Part shown: positions 50,180 through 54,568 of the stretch, in pieces | How the letters are laid out: every line of letters starts with the position of its first letter | Numbering within the stretch: position 1 is the first letter of the stretch | Source: Oscillospiraceae bacterium | GTDB lineage: Bacteria > Bacillota > Clostridia > Oscillospirales > Oscillospiraceae | Length of the DNA stretch: 64,000 nt | Assembly (NCBI GenBank): GCA_015067525.1 | Contig: SVMH01000004.1 | Location: 20,289 to 84,288 of the forward strand | Direction of reading: 5' to 3' | The notes under the pieces: generated by a model | The model's database searches: none | Seen by the model: the letters and a program-made list of their open reading frames with translations, nothing else | What the model was told of the DNA's origin: nothing | Position numbers and translations under genes: made by a program

Positions 50180-50192
50180 CAGGCAAAAGCCG

Positions 50193-50222
50193 TTGACAGG
50201 GCAAGGGGGAGCGTGGTAAGAT
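50193..50222 (+). promoter_or_regulatory. Promoter of the aminotransferase operon
   Basis: TTGACA (50193-50198), 18-bp spacer, TAAGAT (50217-50222). Confidence 0.65.
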
Positions 50223-50228
50223 GAATGC

Positions 50229-50375
50229 AACAAAATATTTCACCTTCCCCATCACCGGGTGGGGGCAAAAAGGGCGTCCAAAACCTTGCCGTAGGTCCGG
50301 CATACCGCAGGTATGCTATAAGGTGGGGTTTTGGATGCCTTTTTTCTTCAAGGTGAAGCACGAGGAGGAACAACC
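50229..50375 (+). promoter_or_regulatory. Structured leader with internal terminator, candidate riboregulator
   Basis: Three paired elements are visible: UUCACCUU (50239-50246) with AAGGUGAA (50350-50357) enclosing the rest; a hairpin CCCCAUC-ACCG-GGUGGGG (50247-50264); and a 13-bp stem GGCGUCCAAAACC/GGUUUUGGAUGCC (50273-50285 with 50327-50339) followed by UUUUUU, an intrinsic terminator. Inside the last is a small hairpin GCAUACC-GCA-GGUAUGC. The ribosome site follows directly after the outer stem. I do not recognise a riboswitch class; a mobile palindromic repeat is the main alternative. Confidence 0.5.
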
Positions 50376-51512
50376 ATGTATATCAAACCTTTTGCCGTGG
50401 AAGAGTGGATGAACGAGTATGAGGACAACGCCCGCTATAACATTGCCGAGACCTGCGTGGACTCTGTCAGCGTGGACGAGCTGTTCGAACTGGTGGGCGA
50501 GGATAAGGAGGCCTTTCTCAAGGACATCTGTGCCCGCCGCCTGACCTACGGCCATATTTTCGGCGCGCCGGAGTTCAAGAAGGGCGTGGCGTCCCTGTAC
50601 CGCACTGTCGCTCCCGAGGAGATCATCACCACCCACGGCGCCGCCGGCGCCAGCCACCATGTGTTCTACTCGCTGGTGGAGCCGGGCGACCGGGTGGTCA
50701 GCATCATGCCCACCTATCAGCAGCTCTATTCCATCCCTGAAAGCTACGGCGCCGACCTGCACCTGCTGCACCTGAAGCAGGAGAATGACTATCTGCCCGA
50801 TCTTTCCGAACTGCGCGCGCTGGTAACGCCGGATACCAAGCTCATCTGCATCAATAACCCCAACAACCCCACCGGCGCACTGATGAGCGGCGAGCTGCTG
50901 CGCGCCATTGTGGACATCGCCCGCGAGGCGGACGCCTACGTGCTGTGCGATGAGGTCTACCGCCACCTGACCCAGAGCGACGAGTGGAGCGAGTCTATCG
51001 TGGATCTCTATGAAAAGGGTATCTCCCTTGGCAGTATGTCCAAGGTGTTCTCTCTGGCGGGCCTGCGTCTGGGCTGGGTGACCACCCACGACAAGGCGGC
51101 GCTGGCATCCATGACTTCCCACCGCGACTATAACCACATCAGCTGCGGCCTCTTTGATGAGGCGCTGGCGGCGGTCGCTCTGCGCCATAAGGATAAGCTA
51201 CTGCAGCGCAATCAGGGCATCGTGCGGGCCAATCTGGCCATTCTGGATGCTTGGGTGCGCAGCCAGCCCCATGTGCGCTACACCAAGCCCCAGGCCGGCA
51301 CCACCGCGCTGGTGTATTATGATTATGACATTCCCTCCCGCCAGCTTTGTATCGATATGTATCACAAGACCGGCGCCTTTGTCACGCCCGGTGACTGCTT
51401 TGAGCAGGGCCGCAGTATGCGCATCGGCTACGCCTGCGACGCACAGGTGCTGCGCGACGGACTGAAGGCCATCGACGAATATTTTGCCATGCTGGACGGG
51501 GAGGCAAAGTAA
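50376..51512 (+). CDS. PLP-dependent class I/II aminotransferase
   Basis: A 378-residue fold-type I aminotransferase. The conserved NNPNNPTGA is near residue 163, the Asp-Glu of the cofactor site in YVLCDEVYR near 193, and the PLP lysine in SLGSMSKVFSLAGLRLGW near 224. The substrate is unknown; the sequence starts with an unusual YIKPFAVEEWMNEYE segment. GAGGAGG precedes ATG 50376; the track start at 50331 lies in the leader. It ends one base before an ornithine cyclodeaminase-like gene, so the two probably act in one amino-acid pathway. Confidence 0.9.
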   Translation: MYIKPFAVEEWMNEYEDNARYNIAETCVDSVSVDELFELVGEDKEAFLKDICARRLTYGHIFGAPEFKKGVASLYRTVAPEEIITTHGAAGASHHVFYSLVEPGDRVVSIMPTYQQLYSIPESYGADLHLLHLKQENDYLPDLSELRALVTPDTKLICINNPNNPTGALMSGELLRAIVDIAREADAYVLCDEVYRHLTQSDEWSESIVDLYEKGISLGSMSKVFSLAGLRLGWVTTHDKAALASMTSHRDYNHISCGLFDEALAAVALRHKDKLLQRNQGIVRANLAILDAWVRSQPHVRYTKPQAGTTALVYYDYDIPSRQLCIDMYHKTGAFVTPGDCFEQGRSMRIGYACDAQVLRDGLKAIDEYFAMLDGEAK

Positions 51513-51513
51513 T

Positions 51514-52530
51514 ATGAGCCGCATTCGCATCATCAGCGCCGCTGACGTCAAGGCGCTCTTTACGCTGCCCATGGCCATCGAGGCGGTGGAGCGGGCATAC
51601 CTCCAGAAGCACACGAAGCAGGGCGGCGTGTGGCCGCTGGTGTTCCACGAATTTGACCCCGGCCACGCCGATCTGGACATCAAGTCCGGCAACCTGGACG
51701 CCGAGGGTATCTTCGGCTTGAAGCTGGTCAGCTGGTTCGGCGCCAATCCCGACAAGGGCCTGCCTGCCCTGTACGGCACCAGCCTCATCTGCGATCTGGC
51801 CACCGGCACGCCCAAGGCGCTTCTGAACGCCGGCCCGGTCACCGACCTGCGCACCGGCGCAGCCGGCGCCATCGGCGCCAAGTATCTGGCCCGCAAGGAC
51901 AGTCGTGAACTGGTGATGGTGGGCTGCGGCGAGCTGAGTCCCTACCTCGTGGCGGCCACGCTGCTGGCGCTGCCGCAGCTGCGGCGCGTCACGCTGGTCA
52001 ATCCCCACCATCCGGAAAAGGCGATGCAGAAGCTGAGCGCCGTTACAGAGAAGGTACAGGCGCTGCTGGCTGCCTCCGGCACCGTCTGTCAGGCCACGCT
52101 GCAGGCGGAAACGGATGTGGAAGCCGCCGTCCGTCAGGCGGACGTCATTCTCACCGCGACCCAGTCCCGCGCGCCGCTGATCCGCCGCCAGTGGGTCAAG
52201 CCCGGCACCCATATCAGCTGTGTGGGCGCGGATATGTCCGGCAAGCAGGAGATCGACGAGGCCATTCTGGCCGATGGGCGCGTTTTTGGTGACGATGCGG
52301 ACCAGTGCTTCAGCGTGGGCGAGTGCGAAACCGCCGCCAAGCTGGGTCTGCTGCCGGCGCTTTGTGCCGAAATCGGCGCCGTCATCGCGGGCGAGGCACC
52401 CGGCCGCACCGACGAGCAGGAGATCACCGTCTTTGACTCCACCGGTATTGCCCTGCAGGATCTGGCCAGCGCTGCCGTCATCCTTCGGAAGGCGGAGGCA
52501 GAAGGTGTTGGTCTGGTAACGGAACTGTAA
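51514..52530 (+). CDS. Ornithine cyclodeaminase/mu-crystallin family protein
   Basis: A 338-residue NAD(P)-binding protein of the OCD family, whose members deaminate ornithine to proline or reduce cyclic imino acids. The active-site Lys is likely in GLKLVSWFG near residue 70; the Rossmann motif is VMVGCGELSPYLV near 139 (an E-L-S variant of GxGxxA), and CVGADMSGKQEID near 243 is a family signature. The start overlaps no site of its own other than GGGGAGG within the end of the upstream gene; the two are translationally linked. A terminator follows. Confidence 0.9.
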   Translation: MSRIRIISAADVKALFTLPMAIEAVERAYLQKHTKQGGVWPLVFHEFDPGHADLDIKSGNLDAEGIFGLKLVSWFGANPDKGLPALYGTSLICDLATGTPKALLNAGPVTDLRTGAAGAIGAKYLARKDSRELVMVGCGELSPYLVAATLLALPQLRRVTLVNPHHPEKAMQKLSAVTEKVQALLAASGTVCQATLQAETDVEAAVRQADVILTATQSRAPLIRRQWVKPGTHISCVGADMSGKQEIDEAILADGRVFGDDADQCFSVGECETAAKLGLLPALCAEIGAVIAGEAPGRTDEQEITVFDSTGIALQDLASAAVILRKAEAEGVGLVTEL

Positions 52531-52533
52531 AAG

Positions 52534-52564
52534 AAAAAGGACACGCTTCCGCGTGTCCTTTTTT
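52534..52564. terminator. Bidirectional terminator
   Basis: AAAAAGGACACGC-TTCC-GCGTGTCCTTTTT between convergent genes. Confidence 0.9.
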
Positions 52565-52567
52565 GCG

Positions 52568-53896
52568 TCAATAGCCGTATTTTTTCCGCATTCCCGCGAG
52601 AAAAGCTACTGTCAGCCCTGCCGCGGCCAGCTCCGCTGCCACCACGGAAATCCACACGCCGTCGATCTCCCAGATCAGGGGCAGCAGCAAAACGGCAGCG
52701 ATCTGGAACACCAGCGTGCGCAGAAAGGAAATGATGGCCGATACCAGACCGTTGTTGAGGGCGGTGAAAAAGCCGGAGCCGTAAATGGCAAGGCCGGAGA
52801 AGAGGAAGGAAAAGGAGAAGATGGTAAAGCCCCGCAGCGTCAGCGCCAGCAGGATTTCGTCGTAGCCCACAAAAATGAGGGAGAAGGGGCGGGCCAACAG
52901 CTCGCCTGTGATGGCCATAGCCACCGAACAGATGCCGATGATAACCAGACTTTTTTTCAGGACGTTATGCAGTTCGTCCCGGTTTTCTGCGCCGAAGTGG
53001 TAGCTGATGATGGGCGCGGTGCCGATGGAGTAGCCGATAAAGGCGGAAATGAACACAAAGGAGACATACATCATCACGCCGTAGGCTGCCACGCCGTCCT
53101 CGCCGGCGTAGCGCATCAGCTGCATGTTGTAGAGCATGCTCACCAGCGACATGGACAGGTTGCTCATCAGCTCCGACGAGCCGTTGGCGCAGGTTTTCCA
53201 CAGGGCGTGGGCGTCAAAGGAGAAGCGCCGCAGGCGCAGTAGACTGGTGTTGGGGCGGGAGAAGTAGAGCAGCGGCACAAGGCCGCCCACCACTTGGCTG
53301 AGAGCCGTGGCCAGCGCCGCACCTACCAGACCCAGAGGAAATACCGCCACCAGCAGTGCGTCCAGCACCATGTTGGTGATGCCGGAGGCCACCGTGACCC
53401 ACAGGCCCAGCTGCGGCTTTTCGGCGGTGATGAAAAAGCTCTGGAACTCCATCTGCAGCATGAAGGCGGTGATGGCCAGCAGAATGATGCGGCCGTAGAC
53501 CACGCAGCCCTCCAAAAGCTCGCCCTCCGCGCCCAGTGCGGCGGCGATGGGGCGCACAAATAGAATGCCCAGCGCGGCGATCACCACACCGGTGACGGCG
53601 GAAAGGAAAATCAGCATGGAGAACAGCTGCTGCGCCTTCTCCATGCGGCCCATGCCCATGGTCTTGGCGATGAGCGCGCTGCCGCCGGTGCCGAACATGA
53701 AGCCGAAGGCGCCCAGGATCATCAAAAAGGGATAGATGAGATTCACGGCGGCAAAGGGTGTCTTGCCCACGAAGTTGGAAACGAAAAAGCCGTCCACCAC
53801 GCCGTAGATGGAGGTGAAGATCATCATGCCGATAGACGGCAGCGTGAAGTGCAGCAGCTTTTGATACGTAAAGTGGTCGGATAGCTGGATGTTCAC
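52568..53896 (-). CDS. MATE-family efflux transporter (second copy)
   Basis: A 442-residue, twelve-segment MATE exporter of a different branch from the one at 13.6 kb. It starts with TYQKLLHFTLPSIGMMIFTSIYGVVDGFFVS and has GTGGSALIAKTMGMGR in the first loop and an internal repeat beginning near residue 230. The start is GTG 53896, with AGGAGG 9 bases upstream. A long structured leader with a terminator precedes it, which suggests induced expression, perhaps by a drug or metabolite it exports. Confidence 0.9.
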   Translation of the reverse strand: MNIQLSDHFTYQKLLHFTLPSIGMMIFTSIYGVVDGFFVSNFVGKTPFAAVNLIYPFLMILGAFGFMFGTGGSALIAKTMGMGRMEKAQQLFSMLIFLSAVTGVVIAALGILFVRPIAAALGAEGELLEGCVVYGRIILLAITAFMLQMEFQSFFITAEKPQLGLWVTVASGITNMVLDALLVAVFPLGLVGAALATALSQVVGGLVPLLYFSRPNTSLLRLRRFSFDAHALWKTCANGSSELMSNLSMSLVSMLYNMQLMRYAGEDGVAAYGVMMYVSFVFISAFIGYSIGTAPIISYHFGAENRDELHNVLKKSLVIIGICSVAMAITGELLARPFSLIFVGYDEILLALTLRGFTIFSFSFLFSGLAIYGSGFFTALNNGLVSAIISFLRTLVFQIAAVLLLPLIWEIDGVWISVVAAELAAAGLTVAFLAGMRKKYGY

Positions 53897-54018
53897 ACCA
53901 AAACACCTCCTGCGTCAAAAGAAAAGCGCCGGATAAGAAACGGCGCAAAGAGAGGATGCCTTATCCGGCACAGGCCATACGTGCCCCGCGCCCTCCGGCA
54001 AACATCCTTGTGCGGCAT
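53893..54018 (-). CDS. Possible upstream ORF in the MATE leader
   Basis: A 41-codon minus-strand frame from ATG 54018 (MPHKDVCRRARGTYG...) to a TGA (53895-53893) that overlaps the MATE GTG start. It would couple its translation to the transporter. No good ribosome site is seen, and the frame runs through the terminator hairpin, so it may be chance. A second short frame (ATG TTT GCC ... GGA TAA, 14 codons) overlaps it. Confidence 0.25.
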   Translation of the reverse strand: MPHKDVCRRARGTYGLCRIRHPLFAPFLIRRFSFDAGGVLV

Positions 54019-54062
54019 CTTATCCGGCGCTGCAATTACGATTGGCAGCTCCTCCGATGAGC
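53921..54062 (-). promoter_or_regulatory. Attenuator-like leader of the second MATE gene
   Basis: On the minus strand, GCGCCGGAUAAGA (54030-54018) is perfectly complementary over 13 bases to UCUUAUCCGGCGC (53938-53926), the 3' side of a terminator. The terminator itself is GCGCCG/CGGCGC (53946-53941 with 53931-53926) plus UUUUCUUUU. The two foldings exclude each other. Between them is a structured segment with GGAUG/CAUCC and GGCAC/GUGCC stems. No known class is recognised. Confidence 0.6.
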
Positions 54063-54068
54063 AAGTCT

Positions 54069-54096
54069 ATTATAGCAGATTCCAAAGGAAAAGCAA
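54069..54096 (-). promoter_or_regulatory. Promoter of the MATE leader
   Basis: Minus-strand TTGCTT (54096-54091), 16-bp spacer, TATAAT (54074-54069). It overlaps the 3' end of spoVAC. Confidence 0.7.
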
Positions 54097-54513
54097 TACC
54101 CCATACACCACGCTGGCCACGGTGCCGAACACGATGACCGGCCCCGCCACCACGAACATCCTGGCCGCCATACCGGTGACGATGCCCTCGGCCTTAAAGT
54201 CGATGGCCGGTGACGCCACCGCGTTGGCAAAGCCGGTGATGGGCACCAGCGTACCGGCGCCGCCGAAGCGGCCGATCTTGTTGTAGAGATTCAGACCCGT
54301 CAGCAGCACCGAGAGGAACACCAGCGATACCGATGTCCTGGTGCCGGCGCTTTCTTTGTCCAGACCTGCCGCCGTCCACAGCTCCATGATCCCCTGTCCC
54401 AGCGTGCAGATGGCCCCGCCGATGAGGAAGGCCAAAGCCGTATCCTTCACGATGGGGGATTTTTTCGCCTTTTTCGCCACATAATCCTGATATTCCTTGG
54501 GCGTCATGTCCAT
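54070..54513 (-). CDS. spoVAC: Stage V sporulation protein AC
   Basis: A membrane protein of the SpoVA complex, which moves dipicolinic acid into the forespore and releases it at germination. The 147 residues hold four to five membrane segments; LAFLIGGAICTLGQGI, GGAGTLVPITGFANA and SPAIDFKAEGIVTGM are hallmarks of SpoVAC. Start ATG 54513 is favoured over GTG 54522 by the spacing of GAAAGGA. No spoVAD or spoVAE follows, which is unusual, since the genes normally form an operon. It supports a spore-forming host. Confidence 0.92.
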   Translation of the reverse strand: MDMTPKEYQDYVAKKAKKSPIVKDTALAFLIGGAICTLGQGIMELWTAAGLDKESAGTRTSVSLVFLSVLLTGLNLYNKIGRFGGAGTLVPITGFANAVASPAIDFKAEGIVTGMAARMFVVAGPVIVFGTVASVVYGVLLFLWNLL

Positions 54514-54568
54514 TTGCAGCACATCCTTTCTTTCCTATCCTTTCCCGTTTGGGGAAAAACATACATGC

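Follow-up and report, generated by a model that had tools for sequence, protein, structure and literature searches.

Among described regulatory RNAs, the systems closest to the leader analysed here are the guanidine-IV riboswitch (GGAM-1) and its variant Gd4v. Both are ON switches built of two hairpins that contact each other through their loops, the second hairpin being the terminator, and the targets of both include MATE and GNAT genes (PMC7736828, PMC9788692). SugE is the commonest guanidine-IV target, over half of the Gd4v RNAs precede PRK07324, and Gd4v is gut-enriched and carries a hairpin atop its terminator (PMC7736828, PMC9788692). GGAM-1 has one conserved CG dimer (PMC7736828). The leader that we set beside these systems precedes a MATE-family exporter gene in a 64,000-nucleotide stretch of an Oscillospiraceae contig (the window). 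We consider it likely that this leader belongs, as a nested tandem, to a widespread class of RNAs outside Rfam 15 that acts as a transcriptional ON switch for exporters.

The leader RNA is encoded on the minus strand at about 54062-53917, with a transcript start inferred near 54062 (Table 1). A first-pass annotation, made from the letters of the window, had described an attenuator with two exclusive foldings, and its observations on the sequence were borne out. The segment GCGCCGGATAAGA (54030-54018) is the exact reverse complement, over 13 nt, of TCTTATCCGGCGC (53938-53926) on the 3' side of the terminator; the word CCGGATAAG occurs at 54027-54019 and again at 53968-53960, with its complement at 53937-53929; and the terminator can also pair locally (GCGCCG, 53946-53941, with CGGCGC, 53931-53926) ahead of TTTTCTTTT (53925-53917). 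The longest perfect inverted repeat in the leader measures 14 nt, against at most 12 nt in 1,000 dinucleotide shuffles, and the leader fold has a z-score of -3.69 and is more stable than 200 of 200 shuffles, so that the repeat is not a product of chance. The promoter is likewise present, with an extended -10 (TGCTATAAT, 54077-54069), although the -35 is weak and a simple promoter scan called none at 54069..54096. The regulated protein scores 150.5 bits with TIGR00797 (cut-off, 147.4) and 133 bits with PF01554.

Table 1. Features of the MATE leader and its gene, in window coordinates
Feature	Position	Strand	Basis
Promoter: weak -35 TTGCTT (54096-54091), 16-nt spacer, extended -10 TGC-TATAAT (TATAAT, 54074-54069)	54069..54096	-	sequence
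Unit 1, aptamer-like core: P1 CAUC 54059-54056/GAUG 54019-54016; internal loop GGAG 54055-54052/GGAUAA 54025-54020; P2 GCUGC 54049-54045/GCAGC 54033-54029; apical loop CGUA 54040-54037	54016..54060	-	covariance-model matches, covariation
GCGCCGGAUAAGA, serving as 3' half of the unit 1 core or, alternatively, as terminator 5' arm	54018..54030	-	complements 53938-53926 perfectly
P3-like helix around unit 2: CCGCACAAGG 54015-54006 with CUUUGCGCCG 53950-53941, imperfect	53941..54015	-	RNAfold MFE
Unit 2, nested within P3 of unit 1: P1 UGCC 54000-53997/GGCA 53960-53957; internal loop GGAG 53996-53993/GGAUAA 53966-53961; P2 beginning GGC 53992-53990/GCC 53969-53967; apical CGUA 53981-53978	53957..54000	-	R2 match, compensatory P1 changes
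Terminator hairpin: local 5' arm GCGCCG 53946-53941, 3' arm UCUUAUCCGGCGC 53938-53926	53926..53946	-	sequence, fold
Terminator U run UUUUCUUUU	53917..53925	-	sequence
41-codon frame, proposed leader peptide, judged non-functional	53893..54018	-	frame unconserved
Shine-Dalgarno AGGAGG of the MATE gene	53906..53911	-	sequence
MATE-family exporter, 442 aa, GTG start, regulated gene	52568..53896	-	TIGR00797, PF01554

Several neighboring features were seen along the way. The -10 box of the promoter contains the stop codon of a SpoVAC-like gene on the same strand (54070-54522), whose product scores 163.6 bits, slightly under the TIGR02838 cut-off of 164. At the other end, the MATE gene and a convergent cyclodeaminase-like gene share a hairpin, AAAAAAGGACACGC-GGAA-GCGTGTCCTTTTT (52530-52568), probably a bidirectional terminator. 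Elsewhere in the window, a T-box leader lies at 1769-1983 on the minus strand (RF00230, 99 bits).

The word CCGGATAAG recurs because a single structural unit is present twice, and this was not recognized in the first-pass annotation, which had the two foldings and the attenuator and missed the tandem units, the aptamer-like P1/P2/P3 core, and the spread over several phyla. The core of the family reads 5'-UCAUC-GGAR-(P2 hairpin)-GGANAA-GAUG-(P3 hairpin). Comparison shows that each unit is made of P1, an internal loop that is asymmetric (GGAR/GGANAA), and P2, which is capped by a small apical loop; in single-unit members P3 comes directly after the unit. Two covariance models were used: R1, built from seven units with the window included in the seed, and R2, built from 36 leaders with the window sequence left out. 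Unit 1 scores 72.9 bits with R1, the window being within its seed, and 39.1 bits with R2, the window being outside its seed; the latter, at 54062-54000, is the best R2 match in the genome. Unit 2 is matched by R2 at 54003-53934 (22.5 bits; E, 0.011). The reading as a REP-like palindrome was dropped once structured homologues had been found.

In a tandem subgroup of 15 aligned leaders, the P3 loop of unit 1 houses unit 2, and the P1 of unit 2 varies freely in sequence and mostly remains paired (UGCC/GGCA, UGUC/GACA, CGCC/GGCG, UAUC/GAUA, and GCCC/GGGC). The CGCAYAAG/CUUUGUGCG helix seen in L032 and L034 is the equivalent of the P3-like helix of the window. Both units of the window hold a strand able to pair with the same terminator 3' arm; full read-through therefore probably requires both to be folded, which would make the switch cooperative or AND-like. 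A second kind of tandem, with two motif copies in series, was observed in L037, L039, and L166. In L037 and L166 the serial copies precede genes for ABC exporters, and the first copy is followed by its own terminator, at least in L037.

The proposed structure covaries strongly among homologous leaders. In the alignment of the 36 leaders, which was made with MAFFT, P1, P2, P3, and a proposed L2-L3 contact comprise 93.2% standard pairs, both sides change in 14 of the 18 pairs, and the covariation score is 0.417, against 0.211 when shuffled, with no shuffle or slid register coming close. For 85 distinct sequences, found by R2 and mostly chosen beforehand on primary sequence only, the corresponding alignment, which is fitted to the model and so favors the structure, is 95.8% paired and scores 0.380 against 0.179, with 0 of 500 shuffles as good; it has 163 double-change cells, where shuffles give 50. 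The alternative pairing between GCGCCGGAUAAGA and the terminator 3' arm, for which conservation in homologues was the relevant test, is about 98% paired across the tandem leaders, with changes from U-A to U-G. The existence of two exclusive foldings in front of an exporter gene is in this way supported by covariation in about 150 homologues.

P1 of single units is almost invariant (CAUC/GAUG), which suggests a function beyond simple pairing; a few leaders deviate with compensation, as L067 does with CGUC/GACG. Conservation of the unpaired GGAR and GGANAA extends through the whole family, apart from a few unit 2 copies that read AGAGGA. A likeness to the in vitro FMN aptamer, which contains GGAUA and needs its U, was rejected, the U required there being variable in the motif. 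The proposed kissing contact between L2 and L3 (CGNA with UGNG) shows two clear compensations (CCCA with UGGG in L065 and CGGU with ACCG in L138) and scores above all 300 partner shuffles; it is absent in a subfamily with the L3 sequence UGAAAUU. We therefore reject a universal kissing interaction and regard the contact as likely for a single subfamily. In 46 of the 87 leaders that have a good -10, this box lies 8 to 9 nt ahead of UCAUC, so the RNA motif starts at the 5' end of the mRNA.

The family employs two expression platforms. In type A members, the window included, the terminator takes YYGGAUAAG itself for its 5' arm, and in type B members P3 (NCGRG-UGCG-CYCG) serves as antiterminator against a downstream terminator, GCGCYCGGUUAU...AUAACCGGGCGC. 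In computed MFE folds of 94 type A leaders, P1 is present in 84 if the RNA stops short of the terminator 3' arm and in only 2 at full length, when 89 form the terminator; this suggests, as far as folding models go, that type A is an ON switch operating by antitermination. Among 48 type B leaders, the same calculation gives P1 in 35 nascent and 29 full-length folds and the terminator in 39 of the latter, so that the exclusion between core fold and platform is strong in type A and weaker in type B. By itself the window leader shows the exclusive folds less cleanly than the family in these predictions: cut at 53950, its nascent MFE contains P1 and P2 of unit 1, whereas with the local GCGCCG arm included (L001) P1 of unit 1 is lost. 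Two outlying leaders upstream of MATE genes may be mentioned here. L229 keeps GGAG and GGAUAA with an altered P1 (21.9 bits with R2) and possibly represents a subfamily; L238 retains a terminator, GTGCGCCCGGTTAT...GTAACCAGACGCAC, its core is gone, and it looks like a decayed type B leader.

These folds suggest a simple mechanism. Because YYGGAUAAG, the 3' half of the unit, is also the 5' arm of the intrinsic terminator, the unit fold and the terminator exclude each other. A small molecule would bind the internal loop, perhaps together with the L2-L3 contact, on the nascent RNA; it is probably a toxic compound that the regulated proteins export or modify. By stabilizing P1, the ligand would withhold the GGAUAAG strand and prevent termination, and RNA polymerase would then read through into the MATE gene. 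If no ligand is bound, GGAUAAG would be captured by the 3' arm and transcription would end near 53917.

Homologues of the window leader occur at the level of family, order, class, and phylum. When 201 genomes of the family were searched with DNA, several related leaders appeared ahead of MATE genes that share the core CAUC-GGAG-hairpin-YYGGAUAA-GAUG, and R1 gave matches in 61 of 394 genomes of the order (E up to 0.1) and 16 of 391 genomes of the class (E up to 0.01), a few of the listed matches lying in coding DNA and being due to chance. An exact pattern scan of named genomes gave at least 77 loci that look real among the 80 matches listed, the other 3 being chance matches in coding regions. 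The carriers among the matches listed are Clostridia, Lactobacillales, Erysipelotrichaceae, Negativicutes, Bacteroidales (including the isolate Odoribacter lunatus), Spirochaetota (Brachyspira pilosicoli and Treponema), Actinomycetota, and one Elusimicrobiales MAG; binning errors are possible for the MAGs, yet several carriers are isolates. In all, 154 distinct motif cores were collected from Bacillota, Bacteroidota, Spirochaetota, Actinomycetota, and the single Elusimicrobiales MAG. A plasmid of Treponema saccharophilum has a motif copy ahead of an annotated MATE gene. The exact pattern had no match in viral contigs; a human fecal "phage" record (L255, MT835591.1) holds a tandem leader and MATE gene very like L034 and is perhaps bacterial contamination.

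The genes behind the motif are predominantly exporters. At 74 loci, window included, the first downstream gene encodes a MatE protein in 53 cases, an ABC exporter in 10, an MFS protein in 5, and a cytidylate-kinase-like protein in 1, the others being mostly short or mis-chosen frames; exporters thus account for about 68 of 73. Elsewhere the gene behind the motif encodes a GNAT acetyltransferase, a protein of metallo-beta-lactamase fold, or an MBOAT-family protein, so that MATE, ABC, MFS, GNAT, and cytidylate-kinase-like genes, which are not homologous, all stand behind it. At three loci (L062, L067, and L108) the motif is followed by a Cytidylate_kin2 gene and then by a close relative of the window MATE (54 to 64% identical), an arrangement that suggests a common compound for the kinase-like protein and the exporter to act on. 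The association is one-way: among 29 orthologues of the window MATE (56 to 69% identical), picked whether or not they had the motif, it precedes only 3, perhaps 4, and the exporter is therefore independent of the motif.

The class appears to be undescribed, as the first-pass annotation had supposed. A cmscan against the 4,227 families of Rfam 15 left the window leader unmatched, permissive thresholds gave chance matches only, and 20 homologous loci had no family match over the motif, so no Rfam identity can be assigned. A literature search found no exporter-associated orphan motif, leaving aside possible unpublished, paywalled, or supplementary listings, and the consensus words of the motif led only to unrelated papers among those listed. 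The main text of the 50-genome and 26-genome RNA surveys makes no mention of MATE or efflux genes, and a human-microbiome RNA set (PMC8040213) may hold the motif unnamed. A conserved and covarying exporter leader that is spread over several phyla and carries an alternative terminator looks like a riboswitch class, with ligand binding as the inferred trigger. Of the two mechanisms proposed in the first-pass annotation, the riboswitch is the better one; stalling on a leader peptide did not hold up, as discussed below.

The main rival to a riboswitch is protein-dependent antitermination, in which a regulatory protein would bind the P1-loop-P2 element and stabilize it against the terminator. RAT hairpins, the binding sites of the BglG/LicT antitermination proteins, are known to have just this look of a small stem with a conserved asymmetric loop that overlaps the 5' arm of a terminator, and covariation and alternative folds are equally compatible with a protein partner. 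We nevertheless judge this reading unlikely, since the genes directly downstream of the motif include no recurring regulator and since a protein shared by several phyla, ahead of unrelated exporters, would have to be near-universal.

Membership in guanidine-IV or Gd4v is more improbable still. The regulatory logic and some of the target genes are alike, and Gd4v adds its gut enrichment and the hairpin on top of the terminator; the Rfam search, moreover, may not count against it, because neither RNA appeared among the Rfam matches here. Gene context and conserved nucleotides, compared through the published descriptions, led us to reject it. SugE and PRK07324 were not seen downstream of about 73 motif copies, and a convincing motif is lacking at ten sugE loci (best R2 score, 15.1 bits), seven of them carrying guanidine-I. 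The motif contains several CG dinucleotides, in CAUCGGAG, GAUGNCG, and the CGNA loop, against the single one of GGAM-1, and its type B members have a separate terminator. The window itself holds a leader of a PRK07324 aminotransferase gene (50190-50376, plus strand; NF005593, 526 bits) with a TTGACA/TAAGAT promoter, in an operon convergent with the MATE gene. This leader has a hairpin and a terminator topped by a further hairpin, the architecture described for Gd4v, and no Rfam match; neither R1 nor R2 matches it, which speaks against Gd4v as a home for the motif.

Leader-peptide attenuation, in which a ribosome stalled on the 41-codon frame would control the terminator, we regard as very improbable. 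The ATG frame that had been claimed exists (54018-53893), and the same frame in L032, read by eye, starts alike (MxHKDxCRRA), a resemblance that follows from the conserved RNA motif. The peptide, whose conservation was the point at issue, is not conserved: in other tandem homologues the frame is interrupted by stops or shifted, and its length varies between 2 and 75 codons, which makes stalling unlikely. Single-unit leaders have no comparable frame, its AUG belongs to the conserved GAUG of P1, and a Shine-Dalgarno sequence at a suitable distance before this AUG is absent. An ordinary constitutive terminator beside a chance long inverted repeat has the terminator in its favor and practically no probability left, being refuted comparatively by a repeat beyond 1,000 shuffles and a covarying structure in about 150 leaders.

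Within the riboswitch reading, we put forward tentatively that the class senses a drug-like or toxic gut compound across several phyla and induces multidrug exporters, with nested tandems forming a cooperative gate in some species. The most extreme version of this idea, that the aptamer mimics an antibiotic target, the peptidyl transferase ring of 23S rRNA, seems to us highly doubtful. The ring does contain the elements CGGAGG(ACC), GGAUAA, and GAUGUCGG, ordered alike around a single helix (as CGGAAAGACC, GGGAUAAC, and GAUGUCGG), but GAUG is base-paired in the motif, and unit 2 has other sequences in its place. If the riboswitch is confirmed, it would be a new and abundant class in gut bacteria of several phyla whose targets are nearly all drug or toxin exporters. 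Its ligand would then reveal the true substrates of these exporters and a chemical stress common in guts, and the leader would be a ready reporter for ligand screening.

In conclusion, the motif may work like guanidine-IV in outline. With that riboswitch (the GGAM-1/mepA motif) it shares a terminator inside the motif, a putative loop-loop contact, probable ON antitermination, and MATE and GNAT targets, whereas its conserved nucleotides and core are different, SugE was not seen as a target, P1 is formed by the extreme 5' end, and nested tandems and the separate type B terminator are its own. Gd4v, an orphan, is alike in its gut enrichment, its MATE and GNAT targets, and the hairpin atop its terminator, which P3 atop the type A terminator resembles, the L2-L3 contact being only partly supported; its core is not shared, nor is its preference for PRK07324 aminotransferases, none of which were seen for the motif. 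The RAT elements of BglG/LicT have similar small stems, asymmetric internal loops, and overlap with the terminator 5' arm, but they need a PTS-linked regulator protein and serve sugar genes, and no such gene is apparent immediately downstream of the motif. The HMP-PP riboswitch (thiS motif) is also very compact and also places an aptamer strand in the terminator stem, yet its sequence, targets, and fold are unrelated. Tandem glycine and guanidine-II riboswitches likewise combine two small units on one expression platform, the latter with kissing hairpins. In contrast to these, whose sequences are unrelated, the second unit of the motif is inserted in P3 of the first, an unusual design for a two-input or cooperative switch.
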